Shown piece after piece: positions 5,482-56,686 of a stretch of 64,000 nt of DNA; position 1 is the stretch's first letter; each line of letters opens with the position of its first letter. The notes below the pieces were generated by a model that had not been told where the DNA came from, made no database searches, and saw only the letters and a list, made by a program, of their open reading frames with translations. This DNA comes from Acidobacteriaceae bacterium KBS 89 (GTDB lineage Bacteria > Acidobacteriota > Terriglobia > Terriglobales > Acidobacteriaceae): the NCBI GenBank assembly GCA_000381605.1, contig KB906759.1, positions 186,001 through 250,000 of the forward strand. Direction: 5' to 3'. The translations under genes were made by a program, and so were the position numbers.

Positions 5482-5674
5482 TTTCCAGATTCGGACTCGA
5501 TAGGACGGTGTACCGATACTGACACGTAGAATCGAATCTCGCTAAGTCCCTGGATCCGTGAGATGCCTGAATTACATGCAAGGTTTTCACTCTATTGCTG
5601 TTGCTGGCAACATCGCGGTGGAATCAGAGGGCGTCAGCAGCTATTGCTGCCGCCAACTTGTCATACCAGTCAAG

Positions 5675-7858: not shown

Positions 7859-8027
7859 CCGCATTCCTTCACTCTCCAGCACAGCCCAAATTGCCTCTAC
7901 ATTCTTTCCCGCGTATCACCATACGCTACGGGAGGAAAACGAAAGAGTAGCCTCTTAGGCCTAACTCCTTCGTCTGCCGTGTATCTCGGATCCGCGGCGG
8001 AACTTACACATCTCGCCTGGGGCGAAG

Positions 8028-9428: not shown

Positions 9429-9461
9429 TCGTTACTCCGTTTAGATATATTCACAAGAAAA

Positions 9462-10064: not shown

Positions 10065-10176
10065 GGAACTCTCCTTCGCCACCTTAGCGCATTTATCTTC
10101 TTCTATCTGCAAGTACCACTGCGTCAGAACTGAAATCTCATGCATACAAGGTATCGGCGCGCAGAAACTGAGGCAT

Positions 10177-11316
10177 CTAAACAAATACCAAACATTGTGG
10201 CCTGGAAATAGGAAATGTCCTCCCTTCGTCTGCCAGTTTGCCTGTCTTGCTATCACGTGCAAATACGGCAATCGTGTCGGTATCCTGGTTTGCAATAAGG
10301 AGCCAGCGATCCGTATGATCGACTGCAAGATGGCGCGGCCTCTTCCCTCCGCAGGACGTCTTGTCGATCATCGTGAGCCTTCCATCCGGTGACACCGCGA
10401 GGGTGACCATAAAATCGTCAAGCCGGCTGGCGACATAGGCAAAACTCATCTTTCGATCAAAGGCGATATCCGATGGCGCTGCTTTGCCGTCATAGTCTTC
10501 CGGCACGAGCGTGATATCCTGCAGAGTCGTCAATACGCCACGTTCGCTGTCCCACCCGAGTACATTTACTGTCGGCTTCAGCTCATTGACGCAATAAGCC
10601 ACTCGCCCGTTCGCGTGAAATTGTAACGCCCGTGGACCGTAGCCTGTCTTCGCCTGCCACAACGGAGGGTCATGCGGAGTCAGTTTCGCCGTAGAGGCGT
10701 CCATGCGATAGATGTGAATCACATCCAGCCCGAGATCGTTCACCAACAAGAATCGATTATCTGGCGAGACAGTCACCCGATGCGCATGTGGCTTTCGCTC
10801 ATTCTTTTCTTCATCGGCGGAATACTGAAGGAAAGAGACCGCTTCACTCAGCTGCCCGTTGCTATTCACTAGGAATGACGCAACGCTTCCTCCGCCATAG
10901 TTTGCCGCGAAGACGGATCGCCCCGAATGGTCCACCGCGATATGCGTTGGCCCTCCGCCCTTTGAGGAGACCTTACTGATCTCCTGCATCTTCATGCTTT
11001 TCTTATCGAAGGAAAAACTTGAGACTGTTCCCTGCCCCACTTCGTTTACAGCATAGACAAATCTCTCACGCGGGCCTAGCACCAGGAAGGTGGGGCTCTC
11101 CGCCTCAACCGCAAGGCCGATCTGTGTGAGTTCGCCGGACTCCGCGTTGAAGCGATAGCCATAGATGCCCTTGCTTGTGCTTGGCTCGGCAGTCTGTGTT
11201 CCAACCAGCAATAGCTGTTCGTGAACAAGGTCCGATGCAAATCCTGACCACGGATGGGTCGCAAGAGTCAGCGCCGACGCGCCCCCAAGAAAATTGCGCC
11301 GCGTGATTCTCTGCAT
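10177..11316 (-). CDS. Tat-exported lactonase-family beta-propeller
   Basis: Seven-bladed propeller of the 6-phosphogluconolactonase (YbhE)/3-carboxymuconate cyclase type, 379 residues. The leader has a twin-arginine motif (ITRRNFLGGASALTLATHP, residues 4-22). Family blocks are visible: YGYRFNAESGELTQIG, PTFLVLGPRERFVYAVNE, GGGPTHIAVDHSGRSVFAAN, PHAHRVTVSPDNRFLLVNDLG, GYGPRALQFHANGRVAYCVN, RPRHLAVDHTDRWLLIANQ. Known members hydrolyse sugar lactones in the cytoplasm; an exported one implies lactones formed outside, for example by sugar dehydrogenases. It sits 68 bp after the TonB receptor gene and before RidA, so it is probably co-transcribed with both. A paralogue lies at 16287-17453. Lactonase activity is family knowledge; the exact substrate is unknown. 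Confidence 0.88.
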   Translation of the reverse strand: MQRITRRNFLGGASALTLATHPWSGFASDLVHEQLLLVGTQTAEPSTSKGIYGYRFNAESGELTQIGLAVEAESPTFLVLGPRERFVYAVNEVGQGTVSSFSFDKKSMKMQEISKVSSKGGGPTHIAVDHSGRSVFAANYGGGSVASFLVNSNGQLSEAVSFLQYSADEEKNERKPHAHRVTVSPDNRFLLVNDLGLDVIHIYRMDASTAKLTPHDPPLWQAKTGYGPRALQFHANGRVAYCVNELKPTVNVLGWDSERGVLTTLQDITLVPEDYDGKAAPSDIAFDRKMSFAYVASRLDDFMVTLAVSPDGRLTMIDKTSCGGKRPRHLAVDHTDRWLLIANQDTDTIAVFARDSKTGKLADEGRTFPISRPQCLVFV

Positions 11317-11384
11317 CCGACCTCACTTTGCAAAATTTTGCGCGAGGCCCGCCTCGTCGTGAAGACGAGCCTCGCTTCTCTCCG

Positions 11385-14300
11385 CTAGAACATGTACTTC
11401 AAAGAGAGTTGTAGCTGCCTCGGACCAGATCGTATTGGTGTTGCCTGGCCTTGGATATCCCCAAAGCTAGTAGAGACGACGTTGCTGACAGGGTTGCCGA
11501 GGTATGCGCTGTTGAAGAGGTTATCGGCATCAGCTCTGAAGTTGATCTTCTGCTCATGCCAGATCGAGAAGTCCTTCAGGATGGATGCACCATATGTCTG
11601 GAAACTCGGTGCCCGTTCCGATGAGGGACGAGCGGTGCCGTATGTTCCATTCGCCGGCTGACCATAGGCGCAAACGCCGTTATCGACACCGGGCGAGGTG
11701 CAGGGGACAGCTGAAGGATCGGTCCCGAACCAGTGGCTGTTGGAGCGATTGACAATCTTCAACGCCCGGTAGTGATTGGCGCGCTGAGAATTGGCGTTTG
11801 TAAAGGTGTTGTTGGTTCCTGTGTTCATGTTGACGGGGAATCCGCTGTAGGCGACACCGGTCATGCCGATCTTCCATCCGCCTACGATCTCGTCAAGGAT
11901 CAGCGGCATCCCGGAACCGAACTGGCGTCCGCGGCCAATCGGAAGGTCATAAATCAAGTTCCAATTGACTGCGTTGCGCACATCCTGTCCAACGGGGCCA
12001 TACTCCGAATGGAGATCATAGACATTTTCGGCATACGCACTGGCCGCCGTGATGCTGGGAACGCCGTAGAAGCCGGTGCTATTGGTCATACCGTGGCTCC
12101 AGGTGTAGTTCGCTGTGTACTGCAAACCGTGCCAGGCGCGCTGACGCAAGGTGGCCTGCAACGCGTTATAGTTCATCATCGCGTTCGAGTCGGTGAAGCG
12201 AATAACGCCGTTGTAGCCAACCCCCGGGGTTGCATAGAAAGGGGCGGGTGCTTGTGCGAGGCAGGCAGCACTCGGGTTTGGAGTTGCGGCGGTTACCGCG
12301 ACGCCATTGACGATGCAGGGATTGTGGAGCTGATTTCTTTGATTTGCAGTAACCAGATGCTGTCCATTTTCGCCAACATATCCGACCTGTACAGACGCGG
12401 TGTTGTTGAGCTGATATTCAACAGTCATGGTGTACATGCCGATGAATGCGGGCTTGATGTGTTTGTTCCACACGTTGTAGACCGCTCCAGAGGTTGCTGC
12501 GCCGGAGGCGGGATTGCTAAAGCCGTTTTGCACTAAGAAGAAATTTCCCACGTTGGTGCTGGCGGGTAAAGCTCCACTGGCCTGGTAGGTTGATTGGAAC
12601 GGAAGGTTGGTCGTCATGCGAAGATTCGCGCCGGTCCCTTCCATATAGTTCTGGAGACCATATCCGCCGCGCAGAACGAAGCGAGGAGTTGCCGACCATG
12701 CGAAGCCGAGACGAGGCATCACACTGCCGTAGTAGGGATCAACGAGTCCACGGCCATATCCGGCAGCCGCGGCCTGGGGCGAGCCATCGAGCAGAATGAC
12801 CGCAGGATTATTCGGATCGATCGTCGACATCTTGTGATTGACCTCATAGATCGGCTGGATGTACTCATACCGAACACCGAGGTTGAGAGTGAGGGTTGGC
12901 GTGAGCTTCCAATCGTCCTGGACGAAGTAAGCGTCGCGCCACGACCGCATGCCTACGGGCCCGGCGACACCGCCTTTGCTGACAAAGCCGGCACGGTTTA
13001 ACAGGAAATCGGCCGCGGTATATCCGTTCGATTTGAATCCGTTTGGGTTGACGAACGAACTTACGTTGGACGATCCGGCGCCAAGGTAGTAGAAGCCGCC
13101 GATCGAGCCGTCGTTGCCGGGGTAGAAGTTGTTCTGCTGTTGGCGAAGGAACTGAACACCGAATTTGAAGGTGTGTCGGTTCTTCAACAAGGTGAAGTTA
13201 TCTCCGTACAAAAATGTATTCAGAGTGTAGTTGGTGCCGAGATTGGCGTTGCCGAGGGTGGTGTATTCCGTGCCATTACTAACGGTGAACCCCTGTGGGC
13301 TGTTTGAATTGTTAAAGGCTAACGCTGAGAAGCCGGCAAACGCCTGAGGTGCCGAATTGGAGACGCTCGAGCCGATGCCAAGGATCTTATTGCCATTGAG
13401 TCCGAACACGCCGGTTGGATCCAGAAGGACAGCGCCGTTGTTCTGGATGCGGGTATAGCCGGCGCGAAACTCGTTCACCATGGAAGAATTGAAAGTGTGG
13501 ACCTCGTTGATGGCCAAACCCCAAAGCGGGAATGTAGGGGCCGGGGCGAAGCTGGTTGGCAGCGGGTTGATGGTGGTCTGGCCGAAATGTCCCCACGTGT
13601 AGCGAACCGACAGGTTGTCCTTTTCAGTTGCCTTCCAATCAACTTTGGTGTCGAACTGGTCGCCGTAGTTGCGGAGCTTTTGCTGGCCACGATAGTTGTT
13701 CGTCGCAGGCGAGCCAGCCTGAGGAGGCTGGTTAGGCAATGGATAAAGTGCGGGATTTGCAAGCAAGTAAGTCGCGGCAGAGTTGCTTCCGATCGGGATC
13801 TTGTTGTTCGGATAGGCAGGGAAACCCGGCGTAGTCGCGTTGTAAAGCTGAATCAACTTTCCCGTGCACTGGGCCTGGGTATCTGAGGAGAGACACATGA
13901 GACCGCGATCAAGCAGCTCGGAAAAGTCTCCCTGGCGCTCTTTCAGCGTGAGAACGGTCGCATTGGCTGGACCGGCGAGGTGATAGCGGCCACCCTGATA
14001 GTCGCCGAAGAAGAAGAGCTTGTCGTGGAAGATCGGCCCACCAATAGTGCCGCCGAAAATGTTGCGGGTGAACGAATTCTTTGCCGTGACATTCGCAGTG
14101 TGTTTGTTGGCCCAGGTATTTGCGTTCAGGTTGTAGTTGCCAAGATAGTAGAACGCGCTTCCATGGAACTGGTTGGTACCACTCTTGGTCTGATACAGAA
14201 TATCGCCGCCAAGCACGTTGCCATACTCCGCAGGCGCATTCGCAGAGATCACCTGGACCTGGCCGATAGCATCAACGCTAGGGCTATAGCCCGCTATATT

Positions 14301-14942
14301 GTCGAGATTCTGGTTGATATCCATGCCGTCGAGCAGGTAATTGTTGGTCTGCTGCCGGTTGCCGTTGATAGAGACCGTTTGATTAACGCTAATCGGCCCG
14401 GAGATTGATGCCTGGCTCACAAAGCCGTTAGGGTTGGTGCTGACAGCACCCGGCAGAAACATCGTCAAAGCGATGAGATTGCGACTTACCAACGGCATAT
14501 TCTCGATGGCGTGTGTATCGAGCGTAGTCGCCAGCACGGGACTCTCCGTATTCAACAGTGGAGCGATCTCGGATGCAACGGAAACTGTTTGTACGTGACC
14601 TGTCAACTGCAGCTTTACATCGACCTTTGCATTCTGGCCAGTCTCGAGCACAAATGGTCCTAAGTCCGCTCCAGCAAACCCTGCTGCGTCAACCTTTACC
14701 TTGTAACTGCCGATCTGCAGAAACCGGATGTTATAGATACCCTCGCTGTTCGTGGTAGAGAGCGTTTCAACATTTGTATCGACGTTCGTCGCCGTTACTT
14801 TTGCATTTGCAACGACTGCTCCTGTCGGATCAGTCACCGTTCCGTTCACGCTGCCTGTAATTGTCTGTGCCTCCAACGCGAAGCCGCAGCAAAGCAGCAA
14901 CGCAAGGAGAAACACTCGAATATTCTGGATATGTTTCATCAT
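11385..14942 (-). CDS. TonB-dependent receptor, Oar-like, complete
   Basis: Outer-membrane receptor of 1185 residues. A signal peptide (IRVFLLALLLCCGFALEAQ) is followed by a carboxypeptidase-regulatory-like domain (about 26-112: SVNGTVTDPTGAVVANAKVT, IGSYKVKVDAAGF). A plug follows (about 130-260: MPLVSRNLIALTMFLPGAV, VSINGNRQQTNNYLLDGMDI, AEYGNVLGGDILYQTKSGTN) and then a long barrel ending in the outer-membrane signature Phe (LQLSLKYMF). The start is set by CGGAGG six bases upstream. It is the first gene of a probable operon with lactonase, RidA, PLP enzyme and GH20, so the imported ligand is probably a sugar or aminosugar fragment; that is inferred from context only. Confidence 0.95.
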   Translation of the reverse strand: MMKHIQNIRVFLLALLLCCGFALEAQTITGSVNGTVTDPTGAVVANAKVTATNVDTNVETLSTTNSEGIYNIRFLQIGSYKVKVDAAGFAGADLGPFVLETGQNAKVDVKLQLTGHVQTVSVASEIAPLLNTESPVLATTLDTHAIENMPLVSRNLIALTMFLPGAVSTNPNGFVSQASISGPISVNQTVSINGNRQQTNNYLLDGMDINQNLDNIAGYSPSVDAIGQVQVISANAPAEYGNVLGGDILYQTKSGTNQFHGSAFYYLGNYNLNANTWANKHTANVTAKNSFTRNIFGGTIGGPIFHDKLFFFGDYQGGRYHLAGPANATVLTLKERQGDFSELLDRGLMCLSSDTQAQCTGKLIQLYNATTPGFPAYPNNKIPIGSNSAATYLLANPALYPLPNQPPQAGSPATNNYRGQQKLRNYGDQFDTKVDWKATEKDNLSVRYTWGHFGQTTINPLPTSFAPAPTFPLWGLAINEVHTFNSSMVNEFRAGYTRIQNNGAVLLDPTGVFGLNGNKILGIGSSVSNSAPQAFAGFSALAFNNSNSPQGFTVSNGTEYTTLGNANLGTNYTLNTFLYGDNFTLLKNRHTFKFGVQFLRQQQNNFYPGNDGSIGGFYYLGAGSSNVSSFVNPNGFKSNGYTAADFLLNRAGFVSKGGVAGPVGMRSWRDAYFVQDDWKLTPTLTLNLGVRYEYIQPIYEVNHKMSTIDPNNPAVILLDGSPQAAAAGYGRGLVDPYYGSVMPRLGFAWSATPRFVLRGGYGLQNYMEGTGANLRMTTNLPFQSTYQASGALPASTNVGNFFLVQNGFSNPASGAATSGAVYNVWNKHIKPAFIGMYTMTVEYQLNNTASVQVGYVGENGQHLVTANQRNQLHNPCIVNGVAVTAATPNPSAACLAQAPAPFYATPGVGYNGVIRFTDSNAMMNYNALQATLRQRAWHGLQYTANYTWSHGMTNSTGFYGVPSITAASAYAENVYDLHSEYGPVGQDVRNAVNWNLIYDLPIGRGRQFGSGMPLILDEIVGGWKIGMTGVAYSGFPVNMNTGTNNTFTNANSQRANHYRALKIVNRSNSHWFGTDPSAVPCTSPGVDNGVCAYGQPANGTYGTARPSSERAPSFQTYGASILKDFSIWHEQKINFRADADNLFNSAYLGNPVSNVVSTSFGDIQGQATPIRSGPRQLQLSLKYMF

Positions 14943-34444: not shown

Positions 34445-35686
34445 TTATAGTTGCAGGCGCAGCTTCACCTTTGTGAGCAGAGCGGAGATTGAGAGCATGA
34501 GCGCGGTGAAGACGAGCGCGCGAACGATGCCCCAAGCGCCCCAACTGAAATGCGTGTCAAGGTAAGTGAAGCCTGTGATGCCGAGGATGTAGTACCAGCA
34601 GTCCGGTAGCAGGTAGGTGAGGAGCGTGTTCGATCCTGCGGAACGAACCCAGAAGGCCCACGTGGTGTGATGCTTCACGTCGCATATGAAATAGAGCAGT
34701 ATGAAGAGAATCACCGTTGCGCCAATGGTGTAGAGGCACCATGTTGGGGTGGCGCGGATCTTCGAGATGCCGAACGGATGGAGGAGACGCGCGGCGAGGA
34801 GTGAAAGCGCGGCCAAAATAATTGAGGGGACGGCCTTCTTGCGGAAGGTGTCGAAGCGCGGTTCGAGGAAGAAGATTGTCGTGAGTGTGATGCCTCCGAA
34901 GGCGATGCATGGCATGGATCCGTTCTGCAAGGGGAACTGGTACCACGGCAAGTGCATGTTGAGGTAGTGGCTTGAGCATGCGACGTTGAAGGCCGTGAAG
35001 GCGACGAACCAGACGGCAGGCGCCCAAAGCCAGCGGCGTGTGGCGAGATAGAGCACTGACACGGCGAAGTAGGTGTAGCCGATGAGGCCGAGGATCTCGG
35101 GATAGCGGTAGGAGAGCCAGCCTATGGAGCCATCCCGGTTGTTGTGGCGATAGATGGCGGCGAGACCCACGAGGACCACGAAACCGAGGAGGCGTAGTCC
35201 GCGATAGAGGTTGCACCGGAACTTGTCTTCGGTCTTCGGATAGACGAACCAGATGAGACATGCGGCGAGGAGCGCGGTGAGTCCCCAGGCGAAGCGGCCG
35301 ATGCCGTGCATTAGATCCGAATTTCCGTGGGAGCCGTTGGCCAGGATGATGCCGAGCACAATCAGAGCGACGGAGCGTAGTGTGATGTGTCCAAAAAGTG
35401 CGGGAATCTTGGCGCCCTTCTTGATGCGCGCTTGAAGCGCGAGCGGTATGGCCATGCCGAGGATGAAAAGGAAGCCGGGGAAGACCATGTCTACGTAAGT
35501 CATCACGTCGATCCTGCCGGGAGCGTGATAGGTCCACCAGGGCAGCCCTTTCACCTCTGCGAGCTCGTTGACGAAGATCATGAGCGCGATGTTGAGTCCA
35601 CGAAGGACATCAAGCGAGACGATTCGATGATGGTGAACCATTTGCGTACCGAGCGGATGCGGCGCTGCGGATGTTGTGGTGCTCAT
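34445..35686 (-). CDS. DUF5009/NagX-like membrane acyltransferase
   Basis: 413-residue polytopic membrane protein related to heparan-alpha-glucosaminide N-acetyltransferase (HGSNAT) and bacterial NagX. The family signature is visible: RIVSLDVLRGLNIALMIFVN near residue 22, then VDMVFPGFLFILGMAIPLAL, and about ten hydrophobic helices. HGSNAT moves acetyl groups across a membrane onto glucosamine; bacterial homologues occur in chitin and aminosugar clusters. The start ATG overlaps the GH18 stop (ATGA), so the two are translationally coupled. Inferred role: modifying or handling glucosamine released by the chitinase. Confidence 0.85.
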   Translation of the reverse strand: MSTTTSAAPHPLGTQMVHHHRIVSLDVLRGLNIALMIFVNELAEVKGLPWWTYHAPGRIDVMTYVDMVFPGFLFILGMAIPLALQARIKKGAKIPALFGHITLRSVALIVLGIILANGSHGNSDLMHGIGRFAWGLTALLAACLIWFVYPKTEDKFRCNLYRGLRLLGFVVLVGLAAIYRHNNRDGSIGWLSYRYPEILGLIGYTYFAVSVLYLATRRWLWAPAVWFVAFTAFNVACSSHYLNMHLPWYQFPLQNGSMPCIAFGGITLTTIFFLEPRFDTFRKKAVPSIILAALSLLAARLLHPFGISKIRATPTWCLYTIGATVILFILLYFICDVKHHTTWAFWVRSAGSNTLLTYLLPDCWYYILGITGFTYLDTHFSWGAWGIVRALVFTALMLSISALLTKVKLRLQL

Positions 35687-36852
35687 GGTTTCACCTTCGC
35701 GTGAGGATGGAGGCCGGCATTGATGGCGTCGAGGAGAACGTTATTTGGGTCACCAGTGTACTCCCAGAACATCATGCCGCCGAGGTGATAGTCGCGGACG
35801 TAGAGCGCTTTGTGCGCGAGAGATTCAGCGTCTTCGTAGTCCACCCAGGTTTGGGTACTGGCGTTGTAGAGATAAGGTGAGTCAGAGGTGTAGTCCCAGT
35901 AGCGCACATAGCCGGAGCCGGGCTTAAGAAGAATGGACTCGATGCTGCCGTAGTCGAGGTGAAGGTCGTGTGCGGAGGTGCCGGACTGAAAGAGACCGTT
36001 CCTGGTGGCGGCGACGTTGGTCCAGCCTTTGCCATAGAAGGGGACACCTAGGACGATCTTGTTCGGCTTCACGCCAGCTTCGAGGTAGTTGTGTACGGAC
36101 TTGTTCGACGAGACGTGCTTGGGATCGTCCGGGTTCTCGTAGAGCGGGGAGTGGTGGCCTGTGTTCTTGTCACCGCCGTACATGTCGTAGGTCATGAGGT
36201 TGATCGAGTCGACGTAGAGCTGCACCTTGGCCATCTCGGTATGTTCAAGGAAGTTCTCACTGCTTCCGGTGGCGATGGAGGTGTAGAGGTGGCGATGGAG
36301 GCGCGCGCCTTCGCGGTTGAAGCGGAGGCGTAGTTCTTTGAGAAGCAGAGTGAAGTTTTCTTTATCTTCAGGGCGGAACTTGTTGTCGTCACCCTTGAGG
36401 CCGGGGTACTCCCAATCGACGTCGAGGCCGTCGAGGTCGTATTTGGTGACGAAGTCCACCGCGCTATCGATGAAGATCTTGCGGCTCTCCTTTGTCAATG
36501 CGGCGTCAGAGAAATTTTTAGACCACGCCCAGCCACCTACCGAGACAAGGATCTTGAGGTTGGGGTTCTGCCGTTTTAGTCCGTTCAGGATGGCAAAGTT
36601 CTCCTTGTCGTGCGCGGAACCCTCAACCACTTTGCCGTCTGCTACGTTGGCGAAGGCGTAGTTGATGCGCGTCAGCTTTTTCCCTGCAACTTCACTGGGC
36701 CCGAGGACCCGGCCGCGTGGGAAGACATAGCCGATGATCTCTGTCCTGTTGGCAACGGTGGAGGCGGAGCTTGTCTGTCTTTGAATGGCGAGGGTGGGGA
36801 GCGGCAGAAGGGTGGCGAGGGCGAACATGCTGACCATTAGGTGCGAGTGCAT
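35683..36852 (-). CDS. Exported GH18 chitinase
   Basis: 389 residues from the ATG at 36852 (AAGGA five bases upstream); the frame is open further up but the signal peptide (MVSMFALATLLPLPTLA) begins here. The GH18 barrel has KILVSVGGWAWSKNF and the catalytic DGLDVDWEYPG block with Asp141, Asp144, Asp146 and catalytic Glu148, followed by INLMTYDMYGG and the insertion domain, then KIVLGVPFYGKGW and GGMMFWEYTGD. Substrate assistance through the acetamido group is the known mechanism. It hydrolyses chitin or chitooligosaccharides. It overlaps the NagX-like gene by four bases. Confidence 0.94.
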   Translation of the reverse strand: MHSHLMVSMFALATLLPLPTLAIQRQTSSASTVANRTEIIGYVFPRGRVLGPSEVAGKKLTRINYAFANVADGKVVEGSAHDKENFAILNGLKRQNPNLKILVSVGGWAWSKNFSDAALTKESRKIFIDSAVDFVTKYDLDGLDVDWEYPGLKGDDNKFRPEDKENFTLLLKELRLRFNREGARLHRHLYTSIATGSSENFLEHTEMAKVQLYVDSINLMTYDMYGGDKNTGHHSPLYENPDDPKHVSSNKSVHNYLEAGVKPNKIVLGVPFYGKGWTNVAATRNGLFQSGTSAHDLHLDYGSIESILLKPGSGYVRYWDYTSDSPYLYNASTQTWVDYEDAESLAHKALYVRDYHLGGMMFWEYTGDPNNVLLDAINAGLHPHAKVKP

Positions 36853-37129
36853 GAAATTCCTTAGAGGCTCTCCGCGAAAAGAGGCCGCGAAGCTTGATTG
36901 GCTGGAGATTGTGCGTGCACGACTTACCACAGCCTAACTCCATTTTCATTCGCCGTCCGTCAAAAATGGTATACACAACTCATCTCACTCTTCCGAAACT
37001 TCAATCCATAGAACAGTTGATGAGAGATCAGCGACAAATATCTTCGTTAGTGGCCGATATGGGAGCTGAGACTGTTTTGCCGCGCAACCTCACCAGGAAG
37101 GCAAATTGGAAGTGCAAGCTACGTGAGAT

Positions 37130-39310
37130 TCATACCTCAAGGGCTACAACCTCATAGATTTTGATCGACGGCACGGTGAGTTCGACGATGCGGCCAGTCT
37201 GATTGAACTGAACATTTGTCTCTGCGCGCAGAAGCGATGCCGTCTTGATCTTTACCTCGCGCGGAAGGCGAACACGAACCGTTTGGTTGCCGAGAGCGAC
37301 TGGCTTGCGCATACGTCCTCGGAAGGCGTTCGGGCCGTTGTAGTTGAGCATGTGTACTGCGAAACCCGGTTCTGTCTCCCAGGCGATCACTTCCATCAGT
37401 CCTTCGCCTTGCACTTGAACGGAATTGTTATCACCAATGAGCCACTGCACCACGTTGAGGAGTTGACGTCCCAGATCACCGTTATCCGTCCTCCAGTAGG
37501 TGGCGTCCATGTCTCCAGCGAAGTAGGCGAGCCGTGATTTGCCTACTTCGCGGAGCACGACGGAGGGCATGTTCGACGGTTCGTCGCGAGCGAAGACTGC
37601 TTCGGGAGGATAGACGGGATACGGCCTGATGTACGTCATCACGGGATTTGCGATGGGAGCTAAAGGAACGCTCCACACGGGGCCGGCGATCCAGGCGGTC
37701 TCTTCGAAGCCACTGGTAAGAGCGTTACGCTGGCGAATGAATTGGAGATGCACCGAGGTGATGGGATCGGTAGCTTTCGCCTCTGAGCGCTGACGATCTC
37801 CAACCTTACTAATGCCAAACAGTTTGCCAATTGCGAAATCGGGACGCGGTTTACCCGTCTCGTAGTAGAGTCCGGTTTCAAAAGTGGCCAACAGCGAGCC
37901 ACCCCGCTCAACATAGCTCTCAAGTGCATGGCACTGTGTGTCACTTAGCAGCGCGAGGTTGGGAAGGATGAGAGCAGAGTACTGCGAGAGGCGACTCTCG
38001 TTGAGGTCCTCTTCGTGGACAAAGTCAAACGGAATTCGAGCCTCCGTCAAGACGGAGTACATTCCTTCAATATGATCCGTCTTCTCTTCCGCTGTAGGGG
38101 CCTTATAGAGTGTCACTGATTTTGATGAGGCGACAATCGCGATCTTCGCAAGCGAACGAATGTTATGGAAGTGCTTGTCGTGACGTGCGTGCCAGCTGAG
38201 GAAGTCGCGACCCGGACCCTGCCAGCGGCGATCCTCCTCAAGGCCTTGTTCCATGCCCAGCCAGTGATACCAGATGATGCCGCCTGAGGCCGCGGTCTGG
38301 GACATGCGGCACTCAGGTTCGACTGACGTATCGGTGACCTGGCGCCACATGATATGGCCAGAACGGGAATAGCTTGCAGTAACAGCGGTGACGGGCCGAT
38401 CTCCCATGAGGGCGTGTGCGAACTTGACTTGCTGAGAGTCCTGCCAGATGGGAGCGACCAGGCCGGAGCGCGATTGATTATCTGCGGTGTACCAGAGGGC
38501 TTCACGGGTAAGTTTCCACTGGTCTAGACCGGATTCTTTCAGACCGCCGCCAAGGTTACAGCTATAGAAGTTATTCGGACTCTTTTCCAGCACAACCTTC
38601 TTGTAGAGATTGATGAGATCGGCTGCACTGTCCATGAGGGAGGCCCTGTACAGCTCGGAATGTGGGTCGCCAATCTTCTTGCAGTTCTCGCAGTAGCAGA
38701 CCTGTAGGCCGGGCCAACCGTTCATGTACACGCCGTCGATGTCATAGCGCTTATTAAGTTCGCGGATGATGGCGGGCTGCTGCTCTGAGTAATGACCGCT
38801 GAATTGACAAGTAAACGCGATGTTGGGTGCCGAGGATTGAAGGCTGCCATCCTGATTGCGTCTGAACCATAGCGGATGGACTTCAAGAAGTTTGGGATCA
38901 AGCCATTGGATGTCGGGACTCATGCGCGCATACACGCGAATACCTCTGGATTTTGCTGCCCGGACGCACTCTCCAAATAAGTCGCGATCGTTAAGATAAG
39001 AGCTGTGATGAAAGAAGGGAACCTCTGTTGGATAGAACGCTACCGGACCAGACACGGAGAGGGCCACAGCCCCGACTTTGGCCGAAGCCCAGTAGTCAGC
39101 CCACTTTTCGACATTCCCGTACTGCGGGTCTTTTTCATTGAAGTTCGTCTGTCCGATGCGTTTGATGCGACGGTACCAGGGAGTTTCTGCTGCTGTTGAA
39201 GGTGCGGCCGATGGATCGATGGACAAGGCAGACAGAACTGAGGGTGTCGAAAGAGTCGCGACCACGCTGCCCGCTCCCATCAGAGTGAATTGGCGCCGAT
39301 TAGGCCTCAT
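37130..39310 (-). CDS. Tat-exported glycosidase-like protein with beta-galactosidase trimerisation-type domain
   Basis: 726 residues from the ATG at 39310, whose leader RPNRRQFTLMGAGSVVATLS is twin-arginine-like; upstream in-frame codons look untranslated. The N-terminal half is a TIM-barrel of the hypothetical glycosyl hydrolase type (KSRGIRVYARMSPDIQWLDP, KRYDIDGVYMNGWPGLQVCY, CENCKKIGDPHSELYR). The middle resembles a beta-galactosidase trimerisation/glutamine-amidotransferase-like domain (SQYSALILPNLALLSDTQCH, ALESYVERGGSLLATFETGL, LAYFAGDMDATYWRTDNG). The end is a beta-sandwich. The Cys cluster in VCYCENCKK could bind a metal. Substrate is unknown. Transcribed towards the GH18/acyltransferase pair but with a 277-bp gap. 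Confidence 0.75.
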   Translation of the reverse strand: MRPNRRQFTLMGAGSVVATLSTPSVLSALSIDPSAAPSTAAETPWYRRIKRIGQTNFNEKDPQYGNVEKWADYWASAKVGAVALSVSGPVAFYPTEVPFFHHSSYLNDRDLFGECVRAAKSRGIRVYARMSPDIQWLDPKLLEVHPLWFRRNQDGSLQSSAPNIAFTCQFSGHYSEQQPAIIRELNKRYDIDGVYMNGWPGLQVCYCENCKKIGDPHSELYRASLMDSAADLINLYKKVVLEKSPNNFYSCNLGGGLKESGLDQWKLTREALWYTADNQSRSGLVAPIWQDSQQVKFAHALMGDRPVTAVTASYSRSGHIMWRQVTDTSVEPECRMSQTAASGGIIWYHWLGMEQGLEEDRRWQGPGRDFLSWHARHDKHFHNIRSLAKIAIVASSKSVTLYKAPTAEEKTDHIEGMYSVLTEARIPFDFVHEEDLNESRLSQYSALILPNLALLSDTQCHALESYVERGGSLLATFETGLYYETGKPRPDFAIGKLFGISKVGDRQRSEAKATDPITSVHLQFIRQRNALTSGFEETAWIAGPVWSVPLAPIANPVMTYIRPYPVYPPEAVFARDEPSNMPSVVLREVGKSRLAYFAGDMDATYWRTDNGDLGRQLLNVVQWLIGDNNSVQVQGEGLMEVIAWETEPGFAVHMLNYNGPNAFRGRMRKPVALGNQTVRVRLPREVKIKTASLLRAETNVQFNQTGRIVELTVPSIKIYEVVALEV

Positions 39311-39505
39311 GTATTTGCTGCTCCGATACTGACGATTCACCGCAATGGATGGAATACACACCGAGATGATAATCCTTGAGAGCGTCAACGGTTGTCCCCG
39401 ACAGTAGGAATGTTTGGGGGAAACTAAATTATCGGCAAATTCTTCTGCACTTGGGAGACCTTGGCTTTCGCACAATATGTGATTGCACGCGTTCCGTCAG
39501 GCGAC

Positions 39506-49352: not shown

Positions 49353-49926
49353 CAGCTAAGGAGGAATGGCGCGCTCTTCTCGATTGCGGCCATCCCTTTG
49401 GCTCTCAATTGGTGATAACAGGGCATTCGCTGATTGAGCTGTTTTACCTAATCTCTGCCTAAGCCCAAGTCGCCGATAAAACCGGCTTACTGGCCATGTG
49501 GCCGGTGTTCCATTATCGATCAGTGCATTAGCGATTCCTCACGTCGAGATAGATATAAGAGATCATTGACTAAACTCACTGGCTACCTCTCGAGTGGCAG
49601 TGCCAGTATTGCGTTCACGAGTGCGTCGCCAAAGTCCAGAGGCGTCCGCAACTAGGGCAAGATCGAGTCCAATAGTCTTCAGTCCGGCCGCTTCTACAAA
49701 CCCGTGTTTGGCGCTGAATCGTAGTCCAGGCTCGCCGGCCTCACCTTCCAGCTCGACCTCCAGAGCCCCCCTCATCCCCGCAGGTTCTCCATCCCCAGCG
49801 CTGACGAAATCCCCGCTACGACATCACCAACTCCAGATCAGCGCCTTCGGAACGGAACATCGCGAGCCATTCCCGCGTAATTGCTGTCGCCGGCATTAAT
49901 AAATCGCAAAGCGATGCGTCATCTCT
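49353..49926. other. Intergenic region upstream of the sigma-factor operon
   Basis: About 570 bp with no convincing gene. A 70-codon minus-strand frame at 49563-49775 has a plausible protein-like composition (ALEVELEGEAGEPGLRFSAK) but no start signal or recognised family; it may be a remnant. The promoter for the operon starting at 49927 should lie in the right-hand part. Confidence 0.4.
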
Positions 49927-50490
49927 ATGAAGAAGCAAGAAGGTGAACTCTTGGCTGCTACCAGCATGACCATACCGTCCACGGAAAACGTCTCGCAACT
50001 CTTCGCGGAGCATTACCCCCGTGTGCTGCTGGCTGCCCATCGCATCACGGGCAGCATGGCCGATGCGGAAGATATTGCGCAGAGCCTCTTTCTGCGCCTG
50101 GCAACCGGGGAACGACCGATCGACAACATCGGCAGCTACCTCCATCGCGGGGCGATCAACGGGGCTCTCGACGTGCTGCGCAGGCGAAAGAGTGCAGCGA
50201 CAGAACCGCTGGATCAGGCAGACCATATCGCGGTCAGTGGGCGAAGCTCGCCGGAGTCTGAGGTCTCAAGCAGACAGTTGGGGGATGCCTTGAGGATCGC
50301 GATCAGCGAGCTGGCTCCAAAGGCGGCAGAGATGTTTGCCTTGCGCTACTTCGAGGAACTGGGCAACAAAGAGATCGCAGCGCTGATGGAAACTTCGCAG
50401 ACTGTGGTCGCCGTCACGCTTCACAACACACGATCTCGGCTCAAGAAAAGACTTTTAGAAATGGATGGGAAGATCAATGAGACACGATAG
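49927..50490 (+). CDS. ECF-type RNA polymerase sigma factor
   Basis: 187 residues. Region 2 is QLFAEHYPRVLLAAHRITGS followed by MADAEDIAQSLFLRLA (core binding and -10 recognition); region 4 is LAPKAAEMFALRYFEELGNK followed by EIAALMETSQTVVAVTLHNT (-35 recognition helix-turn-helix). It directs RNA polymerase to a small regulon, often including its own operon. Its end overlaps the next gene, which encodes a membrane protein with an anti-sigma zinc-finger motif, its probable antagonist. An alternative start inside the first 15 codons is possible. Confidence 0.92.
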   Translation: MKKQEGELLAATSMTIPSTENVSQLFAEHYPRVLLAAHRITGSMADAEDIAQSLFLRLATGERPIDNIGSYLHRGAINGALDVLRRRKSAATEPLDQADHIAVSGRSSPESEVSSRQLGDALRIAISELAPKAAEMFALRYFEELGNKEIAALMETSQTVVAVTLHNTRSRLKKRLLEMDGKINETR

Positions 50491-53077
50491 CGAATCCTTA
50501 CTCGAGACGGCGATCCACGTAATTCACGCTGCTGAACCGGATGCCACGCAGATCTCTACCTCTGCGAAGCGAGTGGCCGATCGTCTCGGCATCGACTCGA
50601 CACGCAGCTTGAACCTCTCAGTCTCTTCTACGATCGAGAGCTGCGCCGATGTGCAGCATTTGCTGGGTTCGTATCGTACCGGAACTTTGTCTGATGCTCG
50701 TACACTTCTGATCCGAGTTCACCTGCGCGATTGTGGGGAGTGCCACCGCTCCTATGCAGCCGGCCCGGGAAGAGACGGGCTTGACTGGTCCGCTCCCGAA
50801 CCAGCCCGCTCTCTATCATGGAATTTTCGCGCATTCCGTTGGGCACTCGCTCCCACGCTTGCTGTTCTGGCGTTGACGTTCTTCCTTTATCGTGCGTTCT
50901 GGCAGATTCCTCCGGGTGTTCGCGCCGAGGTGGAATCGATCGACGGCTCTGCCTCCCGCATCTCGGGTGCGGGTGACACTCCGATCTCGGCGGGCGACAA
51001 GTTGAATGAAGGCGACCATCTGCGGACGAGCGGCGGAGCCCACGCCATGCTTCGGCTTTCGGACGGTTCAACTGTCGAGGTCAACGAACGCAGCGTTCTC
51101 GCCGTCGGGGCCAGAGGGCGAAACATGACGGTAGCAGTCGATAGCGGAGCGGTGCTCGTACAGGCAGCCAAACGCACCTCAGGCCACCTGTATGTGAAGA
51201 CTCCGGATTGCCGCGTCGCTGTCACCGGAACGGTCTTCTCGGTAAACGCCGGGATCAAAGGTTCACGCGTTGCGGTATTACAAGGAACCGTCCATGTGAC
51301 TCACGCCGGCATAGAGACACTGATGCACGCGGGCGATCAGATATCGACGAACGAAAATTTAAGCTTGGAGCCAGTCGATCAGCAGATCGCATGGAGTCGC
51401 GATCTCGACAAGTATCTTCCCCTGCTCGCGCAGTTCAGCACGCTTCAACATAGGATTGATCAGATTCCGACACCACAGCTCAGGTACACGAGCGATCTGC
51501 TGGGACGTGTTCCCGCGAACACCCTGTTCTTTGTCAGCATTCCCAATCTCGGCAATTTTTTGAGCGAGGCGAACAATATCTTCCACGACCAGTTAAAGCA
51601 GAGTCCGGTGCTTCAGCAGTGGTGGGAGAATGGGGCGCGTCACAATACTGCGGAGCTCGATGCTCTCGTCAACCAACTCCACCAGGTGAGCGAATATCTA
51701 GGCGATGAAGTCGTGGTCGTCGGAGTGCAACAGCCGGAAGCTCGTCGATCGAATCCCGGGTTCGCGATTGTCGCCGATCTTCAGAAGAGCGGCCTGGGTG
51801 ATGTTCTGAAGAGTTCGGCTCCCGCCATTACGGTGTTCGACGAAGCTTCACTCGCCACAGCTCCAGCTTCGAGGCAAGATCGGCCAGGACAGTTCGCTCT
51901 TATTCGGCAGCGTGAAGCAGTCTTCTCGAGCAGCGTCACCGTACTGAAGCAGATGCAAGCACATCTGAACGGGAATGCAAGCGGGTTCGCAACCGGAGAT
52001 TTCGGTCAGCAGATCACCGCGGCGTACAGCCGCGGCGCCGGCGTCATCCTTGCGGCAGACCTTCATCAGATGCTGCACTCCGCCTCCGAGAGAGGCAAGG
52101 ACAATCCACGCAGCCAAAACGCTCTGCAGAGTAGCGGCATCGAGGGAGTTCGCTATCTCATCGCGGAGCATCGCGAACAAAATGGTCTCCCTGAGAACCA
52201 TGTGAACCTGCAGTTCGCGGGAACAAGGCATGGCGCAGCTTCGTGGCTCGCAGGCCCTGCCCCCATCGGGTCACTAGAGTTCGTCAGTCCAAATGCTGCC
52301 ATCGCGGTCGCGTTTCTTTCGAAGGACCCAGTAGCCATCGCCGACGACATTGTGAAGATGGCCCAGTCGTCTAGTGCATCTGGCAGGAGTGGTTGGAGCG
52401 AGGCTGAGGCGAAGCTGCAGATCAGTATCCGCGACGATCTCGCGGCAAATCTCGGCGGCGACTTCTTGATATCGCTCGATGGCGCGATGCTGCCAACCCC
52501 GGCCTGGAAAGCTGTCGTTGAGGTCCGTAACGCAGACCAGCTTGAGAGGACTCTCGAACGACTGACGGAGGCCGTTCGCAACCAGAGCGGCAACCACGCT
52601 CACGACATCGCGATCCAGTCGAATCAGAGTGACGATCAAACGTTTTACTCGATCAAGAACGTCACCTCCGGCGCCACGATTGCGCAATACACCTTTGCGG
52701 ACGGTTATATGATCGTGGCTCCCGATCGCGCTCTTCTGATGCAGGCGCTGCACGTGCATGCAAGTGGCAACTCTCTAGCACGTTCCGCGGCCTTCAAGGC
52801 GCTCTTGCCGAAGGATGAGAATGCAAACTACTCCGCCGTCGCATACCAGAATGTCGGACCGGTTTTGACGCCGCTGCTCTCTCAGTTGAGCGGCGAGTCG
52901 GCCCAGGCGTTGACCCAACTCGCAGCAGATGGCAGACCTACCGCGATCTGTGCATGGGGGAAGGAGGATCGCATCGAAGCCGCCAGCAACACGCATCTCT
53001 TCGGAATCGATCTTCTTGCACTGGAAGTCCTCGTACATCCAGGGAACAAGCGGGCAGTGGGAAACGTACGTGAATAG
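50477..53077 (+). CDS. Anti-sigma zinc-finger/FecR membrane protein with large DUF3352-like exterior domain
   Basis: 866 residues from the ATG at 50477, overlapping the sigma gene by 14 bases. Cytoplasmic part: HLRDCGEC with His82, Cys86, Cys89 is the H-x3-C-x2-C motif of zinc-binding anti-sigma (ZAS) proteins. One transmembrane helix follows (about 121-142, [20 protein letters not shown]). The exterior begins with a FecR domain (about 150-290: [60 protein letters not shown]). The remaining 550 residues ([60 protein letters not shown]) resemble DUF3352-type proteins of unknown function. A ZAS-FecR-DUF3352 fusion is not a layout I know. It probably senses an exterior signal and releases the sigma factor. 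Confidence 0.85.
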
Positions 53078-53078
53078 C

Positions 53079-54020
53079 ATGGGAACGGTTGAACTCGATG
53101 CGCTCGAGGTCCGGATTGGCGGTCGCACCATACTCGATCGGCTGAGTGGAGTACTGCGCGGTCAGGCGATCGGCCTGCTTGGCCCGAATGGAGCGGGCAA
53201 GTCAACGCTGATCAACACGCTCCTTGGCTTTCACCGTGCGTCGAGTGGAACAGCCCGCATCTTTGACCTCGACACGTACCGGGATCGGGCGGAGATCCGC
53301 AGCGGCATCGGATATATGCCGGAGAACGATTCCTTCATCGGCAACATGAGCGGCGTTCACTTCGTCCGCTACATGGCCGAACTCGCCGGCCTGCCCTCGA
53401 CAGAGGCGCTGGAACGCGCGCATGAAGCGCTTTTCTACGTTGGGCTGGGCGAGGTCCGGTACCGCAAGGTGAACAGCTACTCTCTTGGGATGAAGCAGCT
53501 CATCAAGCTTGCCCAGGCACTAGCGCATGGGCCCAGGCTGCTGATCCTTGACGAGCCCACCAACGGCCTCGATCCCATTGCGCGGCAGCGCATGATTCAT
53601 CTAATCCAGGAGATTCGCAAGGAAGGCAGTGTCCGTCTGTTGATCTCCTCGCATCTGCTGCGAGACATCGATGAGACCTGCGACGAAGTCCTCATCCTGA
53701 AGAGTGGTCGCATTGCGGCCCTGTGCAATATCGAAGAGGAACGCCGCTCCAACCATAGCTTCATGGAACTCGAGACAGCGGGCGCGACAGATAAATTCTC
53801 TGTCAGTGTCCGTGGCCTCGGTTGCGAATGCGCATGCTTTTCCGGCGGCCGAATCAAGCTCGTACTTCCTGAACACATCGAAGCCCGCGACCTCTATCGC
53901 ATCGCTTCGGAACAGAAGGTGCAGATTCGCAAGATGCATGTACGCCGCGACTCCCTTGAGGACATCTTTCTACGAGCGATGGATACCGAAGGAGAACGCC
54001 CAGCACATGTCCATCTATAA
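53079..54020 (+). CDS. ABC transporter ATP-binding protein (first pair)
   Basis: 313 residues from the ATG at 53079; an in-frame GTG at 53070 inside the preceding gene is also possible. Walker [20 protein letters not shown], signature [17 protein letters not shown] (S-L-G-M-K variant of LSGGQ), Walker [20 protein letters not shown] and the switch His in [18 protein letters not shown]. The C-terminal 90 residues ([20 protein letters not shown]) are an added domain typical of exporter ATPases. Followed by a permease gene overlapping by 14 bases. Confidence 0.93.
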
Positions 54021-54882
54021 ACATCACTATCGCGCTTACACCGGCAGGGTCACGCCGATCTGGACTCGCATCTTCGCGCTCGCACGGTATGGCTTAGCCG
54101 AAGCATGGAGCACGAAGATCACCGCCGTGCTCTTTGTGATCTGCCTGATCCCTCCGGTCGGCTTTCTCTTCACCATCTATCTCTCGAACAATCCATCCGC
54201 GAGACTGCTTATGGGGACCGTGGGCACGCGAGTCCTTGCCATCGATGGAAGTTTCTTTCTGAGGGTGCTGACCATCCAGTCATGGCTGGCGATGGCGCTC
54301 GCTTCGTGCATCGCGCCCCGCCTGATTACGCTGGATATTGTCGACAATGCGCTGCCGATCCTTCTCAGCCATTCCATCTCGCGCTTCGGCTATGTCCTGG
54401 GAAAGTATGCCGCTCTTTTTGCCACGCTATCGACGGTCACATGGGTTCCGTGTTTGCTGCTCTTCGCGTATCAGGGATACGCTTCGCCGGTGCCGTGGGC
54501 AGCGAGCAACCTTCGCATTGGCGTTGGGATGCTGGCTGGAGCGTTGATCTGGATTGCGCTCATCTCGCTTCTCGGCCTCGCTCTCTCCTCGTGGGTCAAG
54601 TGGAGAGGCGTCGCCACCGGCGTCATCTTTGCCGTCATTCTCGTACCGGCGGGCGTCGGAGCGATTGTGACCGGGGTGCTCCACACCAAGTGGGGCTTGC
54701 TGCTCAATGTTCCCGTGATGATGTCCTACCTCTGGGAGCGCCTGCTTGACGTCCACAACCGCATCGATAATGCTTTGCAGCTCCCTACAATGGCCATCGT
54801 TACGATGCTCGCGCTCGGGTGCTGCCTCTCTATGGTCATGTTGAATACGCGCATCCGAGCTCGCGAGGTGGTCCGCGGATGA
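54007..54882 (+). CDS. ABC transporter permease (first pair)
   Basis: 291 residues, about six transmembrane helices ([117 protein letters not shown]) in an ABC-2 type arrangement typical of exporters. The long cytoplasmic N-terminus ([20 protein letters not shown]) precedes the first helix. Its stop overlaps the second ATPase start as ATGA. Confidence 0.88.
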
Positions 54883-55823
54883 ACGACCTGATCGTCTTCG
54901 AGAATGTCTCCAAATTTTACGGCGAAGTCCTCGGCGTGAATCGCGTCTCACTGACAATTCCGCCTGGCATCACAACCCTTGTAGGTCCCAATGGATCGGG
55001 AAAGACGACCCTGATGAATCTCTTGACGGGGCTTGTTCAACCATCGAGCGGAAGTATCTCGGTCATGGGCTTGTCTTCTCGCGATGCAAACAAGTTCTTC
55101 GCAACGGTTGGTTATTGCACGCAGTTCGACTTCTTTCCGCGCGACATCACCGGATGGCAATTTCTTGTGGACAGCCTGATGCTATACGGGATGAGCAAGC
55201 TCACCGCGATCCAGTTAGCAGAGGAGTCTCTTCAACGAGTGCAACTCGATAAGACTGCGGCGTGGCGGAAGATCGACGGCTACAGCAAGGGAATGCGCCA
55301 GAAGATCCGGCTTGCGCAGGCGATTGCGCACCGCCCCAGGGTTATCGTTCTCGATGAGCCGTTGAATGGATTGGACCCCATGGCTCGTGCCGAAGCGATG
55401 GCGCTCTTCGAAGCGCTCGGCTGCCAGGGAATCCATCTCATCATCTCCAGCCACGTACTCGACGAAGTAGACCGCATCGCCGATCGCGTCGTGCTGATCA
55501 CTGGTGGATATCTGATCGCTGAAGGCAATATTCATCAGGTACGGCAAGAGGTGCGCGAGAAGCCCATGCAGGTGCTCGTTCGCTGCGATCGTCCTGAGGC
55601 GCTCGCCTCGAAGATGTTTGCCATGAACCACTGTGTCGAAGCCAGGCTCCATCCGGACGGCAAGGGCATCTTTCTTCGCACTGGCGACGTAGACCAGTTC
55701 TATTCCATCCTGAACGTGATAGCCACGGAGGGTATCGTAAAGATCGAAGCCGTGGCGCCCGCCGATGACGATGCCAATGCCATCTATCAGTACCTCATTG
55801 GTTCCGATGGAGGCGCACTATGA
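54879..55823 (+). CDS. ABC transporter ATP-binding protein (second pair)
   Basis: 314 residues from the ATG at 54879. Walker A TTLVGPNGSGKTTLMNLLTG, Q-loop TVGYCTQFDFFPRDITGW, signature DGYSKGMRQKIRLAQAIA (YSKGM variant), Walker B VIVLDEPLNGLDPMARAEA, switch HLIISSHVLDEVDRIADRV. A C-terminal domain of about 90 residues has its own beta-alpha pattern. Only moderately similar to the first ATPase, so the two pairs are paralogues with separate roles rather than a recent duplication. It overlaps both neighbours by four bases. Confidence 0.93.
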   Translation: MNDLIVFENVSKFYGEVLGVNRVSLTIPPGITTLVGPNGSGKTTLMNLLTGLVQPSSGSISVMGLSSRDANKFFATVGYCTQFDFFPRDITGWQFLVDSLMLYGMSKLTAIQLAEESLQRVQLDKTAAWRKIDGYSKGMRQKIRLAQAIAHRPRVIVLDEPLNGLDPMARAEAMALFEALGCQGIHLIISSHVLDEVDRIADRVVLITGGYLIAEGNIHQVRQEVREKPMQVLVRCDRPEALASKMFAMNHCVEARLHPDGKGIFLRTGDVDQFYSILNVIATEGIVKIEAVAPADDDANAIYQYLIGSDGGAL

Positions 55824-56686
55824 TGCAACAAGCTGATCCCGGGCTGCGAGAAGATCTGATGCGACAGCCTTGGGCTCTCTGGTGGCTGCAGGCGAAACGT
55901 CTTACACAGATTGAACTAAGACGGAATTTATTTTCGTGGAGAGCGAGCTGGATTTATTTCCTCGCGTTTATTCCAACTTTAATAATTTCCATCCACTCCA
56001 TCGTTGATCCACACGATCCCACATCGATCAGCGACGATACCCAGATGCTTGCGAGCATCGTTCACCTCTACTACATTCGACTGGGAGTCTTCTTTGGCTG
56101 CCTGGGTATCTTCTCGCGGCTCATCCGCGGCGAGATGATCGAACGCAGCCTGCATTTCTACCTCTTGTCGCCGGTCAGGCGCGAAGTGCTTCTGCTGTCC
56201 AAGTTCGCTGCGGGATCGGCCACCGCCCTTCTTCTCTTCGTTACGGCCACCCTGGCTAACGTCGCATTGATCTATCTGCCATTTGGTGCTGCAGGGAGGG
56301 ACTATCTCTTCAATGGCCCGGGGATCGAACAACTCGAGGCGTACGTCTTGATCATTGTGCTTGCCTGCCTCGGATACGGAGCTGTCTTTCTTCTGTTGAG
56401 CATGATGTTCAAAAATCCAACTCCGGGAGCGCTGCTCTTCCTTGGCTGGGAGGCGATCAACCCGGTCCTGCCATCCATGCTTCAGAAGCTTAGCGTTGCG
56501 TCCTATCTCCGCCACCTGATGCCAGTTAATATTGGCGTGAAGGGGCTCATCGCACTGCTGACAGTCGAGACGGAACCGGTCGCCGGCTGGGTTGCGACGC
56601 TGGGCTTACTTCTTCTCATCACAGCAGTACTGCTTTACTCCTGCTATCGCATTCGAACGCTCGAGATCCGCTACACAACCGAATAA
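55820..56686 (+). CDS. ABC transporter permease (second pair)
   Basis: 288 residues with six hydrophobic segments (SWIYFLAFIPTLIISIHSIV, LGVFFGCLGIFSRLIRGEMI, SKFAAGSATALLLFVTATLA, AYVLIIVLACLGYGAVFLLL, TPGALLFLGWEAINPVLPSM, WVATLGLLLLITAVLLYSCY). The SLHFYLLSPVRREVLLLSKF segment after the second helix is the amphipathic coupling region common in ABC-2 exporters. It overlaps the second ATPase by four bases (ATGA). It is the last gene of a six-gene, fully overlapping unit beginning with the sigma factor at 49927. Confidence 0.88.
   Translation: MMQQADPGLREDLMRQPWALWWLQAKRLTQIELRRNLFSWRASWIYFLAFIPTLIISIHSIVDPHDPTSISDDTQMLASIVHLYYIRLGVFFGCLGIFSRLIRGEMIERSLHFYLLSPVRREVLLLSKFAAGSATALLLFVTATLANVALIYLPFGAAGRDYLFNGPGIEQLEAYVLIIVLACLGYGAVFLLLSMMFKNPTPGALLFLGWEAINPVLPSMLQKLSVASYLRHLMPVNIGVKGLIALLTVETEPVAGWVATLGLLLLITAVLLYSCYRIRTLEIRYTTE

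Follow-up and report, generated by a model that had tools for sequence, protein, structure and literature searches.

A sigma factor, an anti-sigma-type membrane protein and an ABC-2 transporter in one conserved operon of Acidobacteriota: a candidate self-contained sensing and export unit

Sigma factors of the extracytoplasmic function (ECF) type consist only of the sigma2 and sigma4 domains joined by a short linker, and the promoters they recognise usually carry AAC in the -35 element and CGT in the -10 element (PMC8103513, excerpt). In systems such as SigW-RsiW and ChrR, an ECF sigma factor is paired with a class I zinc anti-sigma factor, in which an Hx3Cx2C motif extends across helices 2 and 3 of a small helical domain, while FecR of Escherichia coli is assigned to a distinct anti-sigma group, AS243 (PMC7406223, excerpt). 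Anti-sigma factors may also be governed by separate exterior proteins: MucB binds lipid A, and the lipid induces dissociation of MucA and MucB (PMC7400510, excerpt). Here, these systems are compared with an operon of six genes, termed SIG, MEM, A1, P1, A2 and P2, found in a stretch of 64,000 nucleotides from Acidobacteriaceae bacterium KBS 89 (contig KB906759.1, positions 186,001 to 250,000), which is referred to as the window and supplies all coordinates given without a locus identifier.

On the transporter side, the Pmt system (PmtABCD) has a pair of ATPases and a pair of permeases next to one another, and NosD is the periplasmic partner beside NosFY. In common with SigW-RsiW and ChrR, the present locus has neighbouring genes for a sigma factor and a membrane anti-sigma-type protein, an Hx3Cx2C domain with profile matches to ChrR and RsiW, and a promoter-like box with CGT in its -10 part upstream of the sigma factor's own gene. 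It departs from them by exterior FecR and DUF3352 domains, by exporter genes within the operon, by TTAATAA in place of AAC in the -35 part, and by two relatives devoid of all zinc ligands. In contrast to FecI-FecR and PupI-PupR, the operon holds no gene for a TonB receptor, a zinc domain replaces the FecR N terminus, a large additional DUF3352 domain is present, and the transporter is an ABC-2 exporter instead of an importer. By analogy with RseA/RseB and MucA/MucB, the anti-sigma part could be gated from outside by a domain that is possibly of the lipid-carrier type, whereas no sequence match to these proteins was found and DUF3352 is about twice as long and fused to the anti-sigma-type domain. 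The locus resembles PmtABCD in the adjacent pairs of ATPase and permease genes as well as in matches to the PmtA and PmtC models below cut-off, and NosDFY in the presence of NosF among the Protein Data Bank (PDB) matches of A1; unlike in both, neither permease has an NCBIfam match and a sigma-type regulator is part of the operon.

The six genes span 49927-56686 (6.8 kb), all on the plus strand:

49927-50490, plus strand: SIG, ECF-type sigma factor of 187 residues (Pfam, NCBIfam, alignment)
50477-53077, plus strand: MEM, single-pass protein of 866 residues with a zinc anti-sigma domain, transmembrane helix, FecR and DUF3352 domains (870 residues from an alternative in-frame ATG upstream at 50465)
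53079-54020, plus strand: A1, ATPase of the ATP-binding cassette (ABC) type (Pfam, Walker A and B, H-switch histidine)
54007-54882, plus strand: P1, ABC-2 type permease (alignment family, hydropathy)
54879-55823, plus strand: A2, ABC ATPase of a line separate from A1 (Pfam, distances, Walker A and B, H-switch)
55820-56686, plus strand: P2, ABC-2 type permease (Pfam below cut-off, alignment family)

In order, the junctions are a 14-nucleotide overlap, a 1-nucleotide gap, a further 14-nucleotide overlap and two 4-nucleotide overlaps, and the reading frames thus bear out an earlier note on this DNA, which had described six abutting or overlapping genes.

The whole operon is probably best understood, at somewhat better than even odds, as an autoregulated pair of ECF sigma factor and zinc anti-sigma factor with a fused envelope sensor and a dedicated ABC-2 exporter, and hence as a self-contained unit of sensing and export. 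Gene order, conservation, the promoter box with its rarity and the domain folds were computed; from these we infer a circuit, including sigma binding, promoter use, signal, release step, substrate and direction of control, that would operate as follows. The N-terminal zinc domain of MEM, of the class I anti-sigma type, would keep SIG inactive at the inner membrane, while the exterior FecR and DUF3352 domains would respond to a state of the envelope, for which a lipid or amphiphile, or else the activity state of the transporter, is the most likely candidate. Upon this signal, SIG would be freed by a conformational change or by intramembrane proteolysis and would transcribe its own operon from a TTAATAA-N14-CGTC promoter. 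The amount of A1-P1-A2-P2, probably a single heteromeric exporter, would then rise, and clearance of the stimulus by the exporter would allow MEM to recapture SIG.

SIG comprises Sigma70_r2 (residues 25-88) and Sigma70_r4_2 (122-172), both above the Pfam cut-off, and scores 78.1 bits with the NCBIfam model TIGR02937 (cut-off 42.9). With only the sigma2 and sigma4 domains and a short linker it has the layout of an ECF sigma factor; its gene adjoins one of anti-sigma type, as expected for this group, and autoregulation is predicted. SIG may already be listed as a numbered group in the published ECF classification, and novelty at the level of the sigma group is not claimed. In one related locus (L104:4160-4864) no recognisable SIG precedes MEM; instead, a frame of 235 residues that ends just before MEM occupies the place and shows weak similarity to sigma region 4 (14.4 bits, cut-off 25.7), possibly representing a diverged or replaced sigma factor.

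Within MEM, four parts are distinguished:

50642-50746, plus strand: zinc anti-sigma domain (zf-HC2) with Cys56, His82, Cys86 and Cys89 (ligand conservation, profile matches)
50837-50902, plus strand: transmembrane helix (model residues 121-142, with modest model confidence there)
51017-51292, plus strand: FecR domain
51452-53074, plus strand: exterior DUF3352 domain (residues 326-866)

The zf-HC2, FecR and DUF3352 matches all exceed their Pfam cut-offs (23.6, 56.5 and 29.1 bits against 22.2, 24 and 26.8, respectively). The earlier note had placed a cytoplasmic H-x3-C-x2-C anti-sigma motif at His82, Cys86 and Cys89, followed by a single transmembrane helix, a FecR domain and a large exterior domain; the motif positions are correct, and Pfam, hydropathy and the structure model agree with the remainder, with one transmembrane helix in the MEM of the window at residues 119-137 by hydropathy and at 121-142, a low-confidence stretch, in the model. 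The exterior FecR domain after a single helix is the arrangement of FecR-type regulators. Cys56 emerges as a fourth likely zinc ligand, which that note lacked, and far from varying freely, the four putative ligands are retained in 61 of 63 aligned MEM sequences. The zinc-domain profile matches ChrR (2q1z, E 0.0045) and RsiW (5wuq, E 0.028), and helices at residues 56-68, 73-85 and 87-94 of the model accommodate the Hx3Cx2C motif in the manner of class I anti-sigma factors. MEM is probably, by its sequence, a zinc anti-sigma factor that would hold SIG off. In L095 (7896-10460, minus strand) and L097 (4980-7565, plus strand), other residues stand at all four ligand positions, and the remainder of MEM and the operon is retained; by sequence, these are natural versions of MEM without the zinc site.

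The FecR domain has fold matches to PupR and 4m0n. MEM might alternatively take part in FecR-type cell-surface signalling, in which a TonB outer-membrane receptor encoded elsewhere would act through the FecR domain on SIG. No TonB receptor is found among the six genes or the immediate flanking genes, to which the scan was confined, the rest of the genome not having been searched; a receptor-like barrel is encoded 35 kb from the operon. Moreover, the zinc ligands set MEM apart from E. coli FecR, and the DUF3352 domain of 540 residues is not a FecR feature, so that this alternative appears improbable.

Two promoter-like elements precede SIG:

49896-49920, plus strand: candidate autoregulatory sigma promoter TTAATAA-N14-CGTC (motif search), 6 nucleotides before the SIG ATG
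49854-49880, plus strand: secondary promoter-like box GGAAC-N17-CGTA(A), present in a minority of relatives; weak

The first was recovered from 116 distinct SIG upstream regions, drawn from class loci, named loci and the window. A blind two-block search returned TAAT-N16-CGTC as top pair in 45 of the 116 regions, while the top pairs of shuffled sets reached 8. Scored as GTTAATAAT-N11..14-CGTC, the box attains at least 14 points in 67/116 regions against 6/116 shuffles; it occupies 67 of 114 upstream intervals, against no more than 9/106 in any of seven displaced intervals and a single case (1/114) on the opposite strand. In the 6.0-Mb genome, the exact sequence TTAATAA-N13/14-CGTC occurs once, at 49896-49920. 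As the reversed control also occurs once, a single exact box equals chance expectation, and the weight rests on its location and on the lack of others. One-mismatch sites number 20 against 43 for the reversed control, i.e. there is no surplus of the box elsewhere in the genome, and a search for further regulon members by this means was abandoned. Across 16 operon genomes, nearly all selected for having the box at their locus, 15 contain the exact site, with 20 sites in total (17 in the reversed control), 15 of which lie upstream of SIG as judged by the matched letters. The check proposed in the earlier note, for a shared motif upstream of SIG and at other genomic sites, gives a promoter-like box shared by many loci, with one exact copy in this genome. 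With CGTC ending so close to the start codon, the SIG mRNA may be leaderless, as the sequence suggests.

The GGAAC box was considered as a second promoter. GGAAC-N16..18-CGT[AC] is present in 21/114 upstream intervals and in 0-2 instances in six displaced intervals, with 18/115 in the seventh, inside coding DNA, and GGAAC-N17-CGTAA has 7 genome sites against 5 in the reversed control; the box was rejected in that role and retained merely as a weak feature. A sigma-70 scan of the region yielded one promoter-like site, located inside P1, with a score below the shuffled mean.

The arrangement is widely retained, more so than chance would give. MEM has matches in 108 of 399 genomes of the class Terriglobia (E<=1e-30). 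From these matches, together with two relatives from the genus, 68 regions were hand-chosen for genus spread; full-length MEM is present in 62 (L057-L118) and a short paralogue in the other six (L119-L124). In profile searches, all six genes follow in order on one strand in 59 of the 62 full-length loci, the exceptions being two that end at contig ends (L092, L113) and L104, which is without a SIG match. In L111, counted among the 59, A1 and P1 lie 3.6 kb apart, with a long frame on the opposite strand between them. At each of the five boundaries, the junction does not exceed 20 nucleotides in 51-59 of the 60 loci compared (the 59 class loci and the window). A draw on the phylum gave MEM matches at E<=1e-50 in 80 of 396 genomes, of which four belong to the class. 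Among 20 loci taken from the other genomes, 19 contain all six genes, while L305 ends at a contig end; a 2.8-kb insert lies between A1 and P1 in L307. At the junction of MEM and A1, L305 carries an additional frame (7666-8856) of ~397 codons, parts of which look repetitive, and a longer gap is also seen in L301, L302 and L307, all outside the class.

A scan of named genomes confirmed 237 stretches, of which the best 80, some of them the same contigs as class loci, were examined. The titles of 79 of these 80 refer to Acidobacteriota or its subgroups, from Granulicella to Pyrinomonadaceae and Blastocatellia. The nearest among the 80 is from Granulicella (80% identity). One title (L139) names a member of the Betaproteobacteria, which we suspect to be a mislabelled metagenome-assembled genome; exclusivity to Acidobacteriota is not claimed. 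The six genes are complete in 58 of the best 80 of the 237 stretches, and most of the 22 incomplete loci lie on short contigs or are matched where a contig ends; in L153, P1 lies on the other strand at a contig end. Eight genomes of incomplete loci were searched for P1, which was present in seven, the remaining one (2.9 Mb) having none. Together, the class, the rest of the phylum and the named stretches substantiate the proposed linkage of SIG-MEM with the twin ABC genes.

The permease P1 has matches in 117 of the 399 class genomes (E<=1e-10): MEM and P1 are both present in 101, MEM only in 7 and P1 only in 16. The seven MEM-only genomes match just residues ~290-850, i.e. the short DUF3352 paralogue, and in a few of the 101 (e.g. 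G059, G106, G109 and G159) the matched MEM is partial. Among the 16 P1-only loci, a piece of MEM is left at the end of the contig in two (L287, L299), and three are cut just upstream (L288, L289, L292). No alternative partner shared by the quartet A1-P1-A2-P2 was seen among the neighbouring frames listed for 10 of the 16. In a genus sample of 23 genomes, P1 occurs in two, the same two that carry MEM, and the other 21 are without a MEM match. SIG-MEM thus accompanies the transporter and not vice versa, which suits a dedicated regulator, and it looks like one rather than like an integral part of the transporter.

As to the transporter itself, A1 and A2 match ABC_tran in Pfam, and P2 matches ABC2_membrane_2 with a score under the cut-off. 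The window's own P1 goes unmatched in Pfam at 0.001 and at 0.1, while 22 of 26 members of the P1 alignment match ABC2_membrane_2 at E<=0.1; for P2 the figure is 19 of 26 at E<=0.01. No NCBIfam match was obtained for either permease, nor did any PDB sequence match the P2 profile at E<=0.1. Among the best 25 of 186 and 187 NCBIfam matches of A1 and A2, respectively, none reaches cut-off, PmtA and PmtC matching A1 and PmtA matching A2. Walker A and B motifs are present in 60/60 sequences of both ATPases, as in ABC-2 exporter ATPases. A heteromer with one dead ATPase was considered because a narrow motif scan had missed the H-switch of A1 in 29/60 sequences, and was rejected since the alignment gives the histidine in 60/60 for A1 as well as A2. 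With a median identity of 37% between and 61% within them, A1 and A2 are by sequence old, distinct lines. The quartet stays together even in the absence of SIG-MEM, which favours one heteromeric exporter over two, and a single heteromeric ABC-2 exporter is, judged from the sequences, probably the more appropriate description. The earlier interpretation as a sensor linked to two exporters gains from the conserved linkage, the zinc residues and the promoter-like box, and the two ATPase-permease pairs do exist, while the two exporters give way to one heteromeric unit.

The PDB sequence matches of A1 are led by ABCA-type phospholipid-transporting ATPases, followed by NosF; this pattern is generic for the ATPase family and no evidence on the substrate. 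In a different view, MEM would mainly serve the exporter as a structural or accessory component, a periplasmic partner taking or passing substrate in the way of NosD beside NosFY, and the sigma/anti-sigma part would report transporter occupancy in the manner of flux sensing. The joint presence of MEM and P1 in the class, with MEM lacking P1 solely as the short paralogue, the NosF match of A1, the resemblance of DUF3352 to a proposed lipid carrier and the best correlation of protein distances for MEM, A1 and A2 (0.87-0.89) speak for this view. On the other hand, the quartet occurs without MEM nearby in 11 loci, rendering MEM dispensable, and all six genes correlate (0.73-0.89), which vertical descent alone could yield. 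A primarily structural role of MEM is accordingly rated as unlikely, and regulation of a dedicated exporter by SIG-MEM is preferred.

Several observations weigh against a self-contained sensing and export unit. In L171, L176 and L190, no ATPase match occurs within 2.4 kb or more downstream of MEM and P1 is present elsewhere in the genome, so that the quartet is unlinked and co-transcription with SIG-MEM is not universal; in L157 and L179, 1.3 and 1.5 kb after MEM likewise contain no ATPase match. Conversely, in 11 of the 16 P1-only loci neither SIG nor MEM is matched over 8 kb or more of upstream DNA, and SIG-MEM is thus dispensable for the transporter's existence. The candidate promoter contains CGT in its -10 part and no AAC in its -35 part, and 49 of the 116 upstream regions fall below the score threshold; some of the mechanically chosen SIG start codons are probably wrong. 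Lastly, the best fold match of DUF3352, the lipid-carrier-like protein TP0453, is weak (Foldseek E 0.0044, with one unrelated chain ranked higher), and no sequence match between the two was found. The three broken linkages and the 11 solitary quartets would also be expected if linkage were a matter of history only, with an ECF/anti-sigma pair of the usual sort in control of unrelated genes and the transporter merely adjacent. The gene order retained within and beyond the class, the short junctions at all five boundaries and a promoter box without surplus elsewhere in the genome oppose such an explanation, which we regard as very improbable.

Fold searches gave no other domain-sized match of DUF3352 clear of background, an absence not taken as evidence. 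The single fold match in conjunction with the MucB precedent makes a lipid a tentative candidate for the MEM signal. A more far-reaching proposal, offered as speculative, is that DUF3352 would be a lipid-binding envelope sensor fused to the anti-sigma factor, the SIG regulon would consist of one operon and its sole output would be a heteromeric lipid or glycolipid exporter; together these would make a closed homeostat, confined to one operon, of a membrane component throughout the Acidobacteriota. DUF3352 also occurs outside the operon: the short paralogues of L119-L124 (734-778 residues) lack a zinc-finger or FecR part and lie away from any such operon. In L068, L071, L143 and L150, of which L071 and L150 are apparently one contig, a second DUF3352 gene is located just 5' of SIG on the same strand, beginning with a hydrophobic stretch in L068 and L071. 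In genus g196 of family f60 (L317, L320 and others), the MEM profile matches only to about position 714 in frames of ~1000-1460 residues, and the C-terminal part of MEM may differ there.

The flanking genes scanned encode a luciferase-like monooxygenase, a major facilitator superfamily (MFS) transporter and an MMPL protein. Farther away, the intervals 3991-14942 and 35686-39475 of the window encode proteins of glycan degradation (GH20, GH18 and one resembling GH42) as well as a large barrel protein of the outer membrane that has a carboxypeptidase-like domain. No connection of these with the operon was seen. Plasmid carriage was discarded, MEM having no match in the plasmid collection, as was a defence system: PADLOC returned six matches each for A1 and A2, which we attribute to common ATPase motifs, and no match for SIG, MEM, P1 or P2.

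In the open literature searched, neither a description of the SIG-MEM-exporter combination and its conservation nor any mention of the DUF3352 family was found. The earlier proposal of an undescribed signalling-export system therefore applies to the combination, which appears undescribed, and not to the parts, whose kinds are all known. The Acidobacteriota are bacteria widespread in soils, and their envelope stress systems have, to our knowledge, been little worked out. The operon would provide them with a complete circuit of sensor, switch, promoter and output within 6.8 kb, and it comes with a natural series of variants in which the zinc ligands are missing, no sigma gene is recognisable, the quartet is unlinked or the quartet stands alone. 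Furthermore, it places the uncharacterised DUF3352 family on the exterior side beside a transporter, with a lead on its fold. If the lipid-sensing proposal were true, a single protein, MEM, would perform the task that is otherwise split between RseA and RseB.

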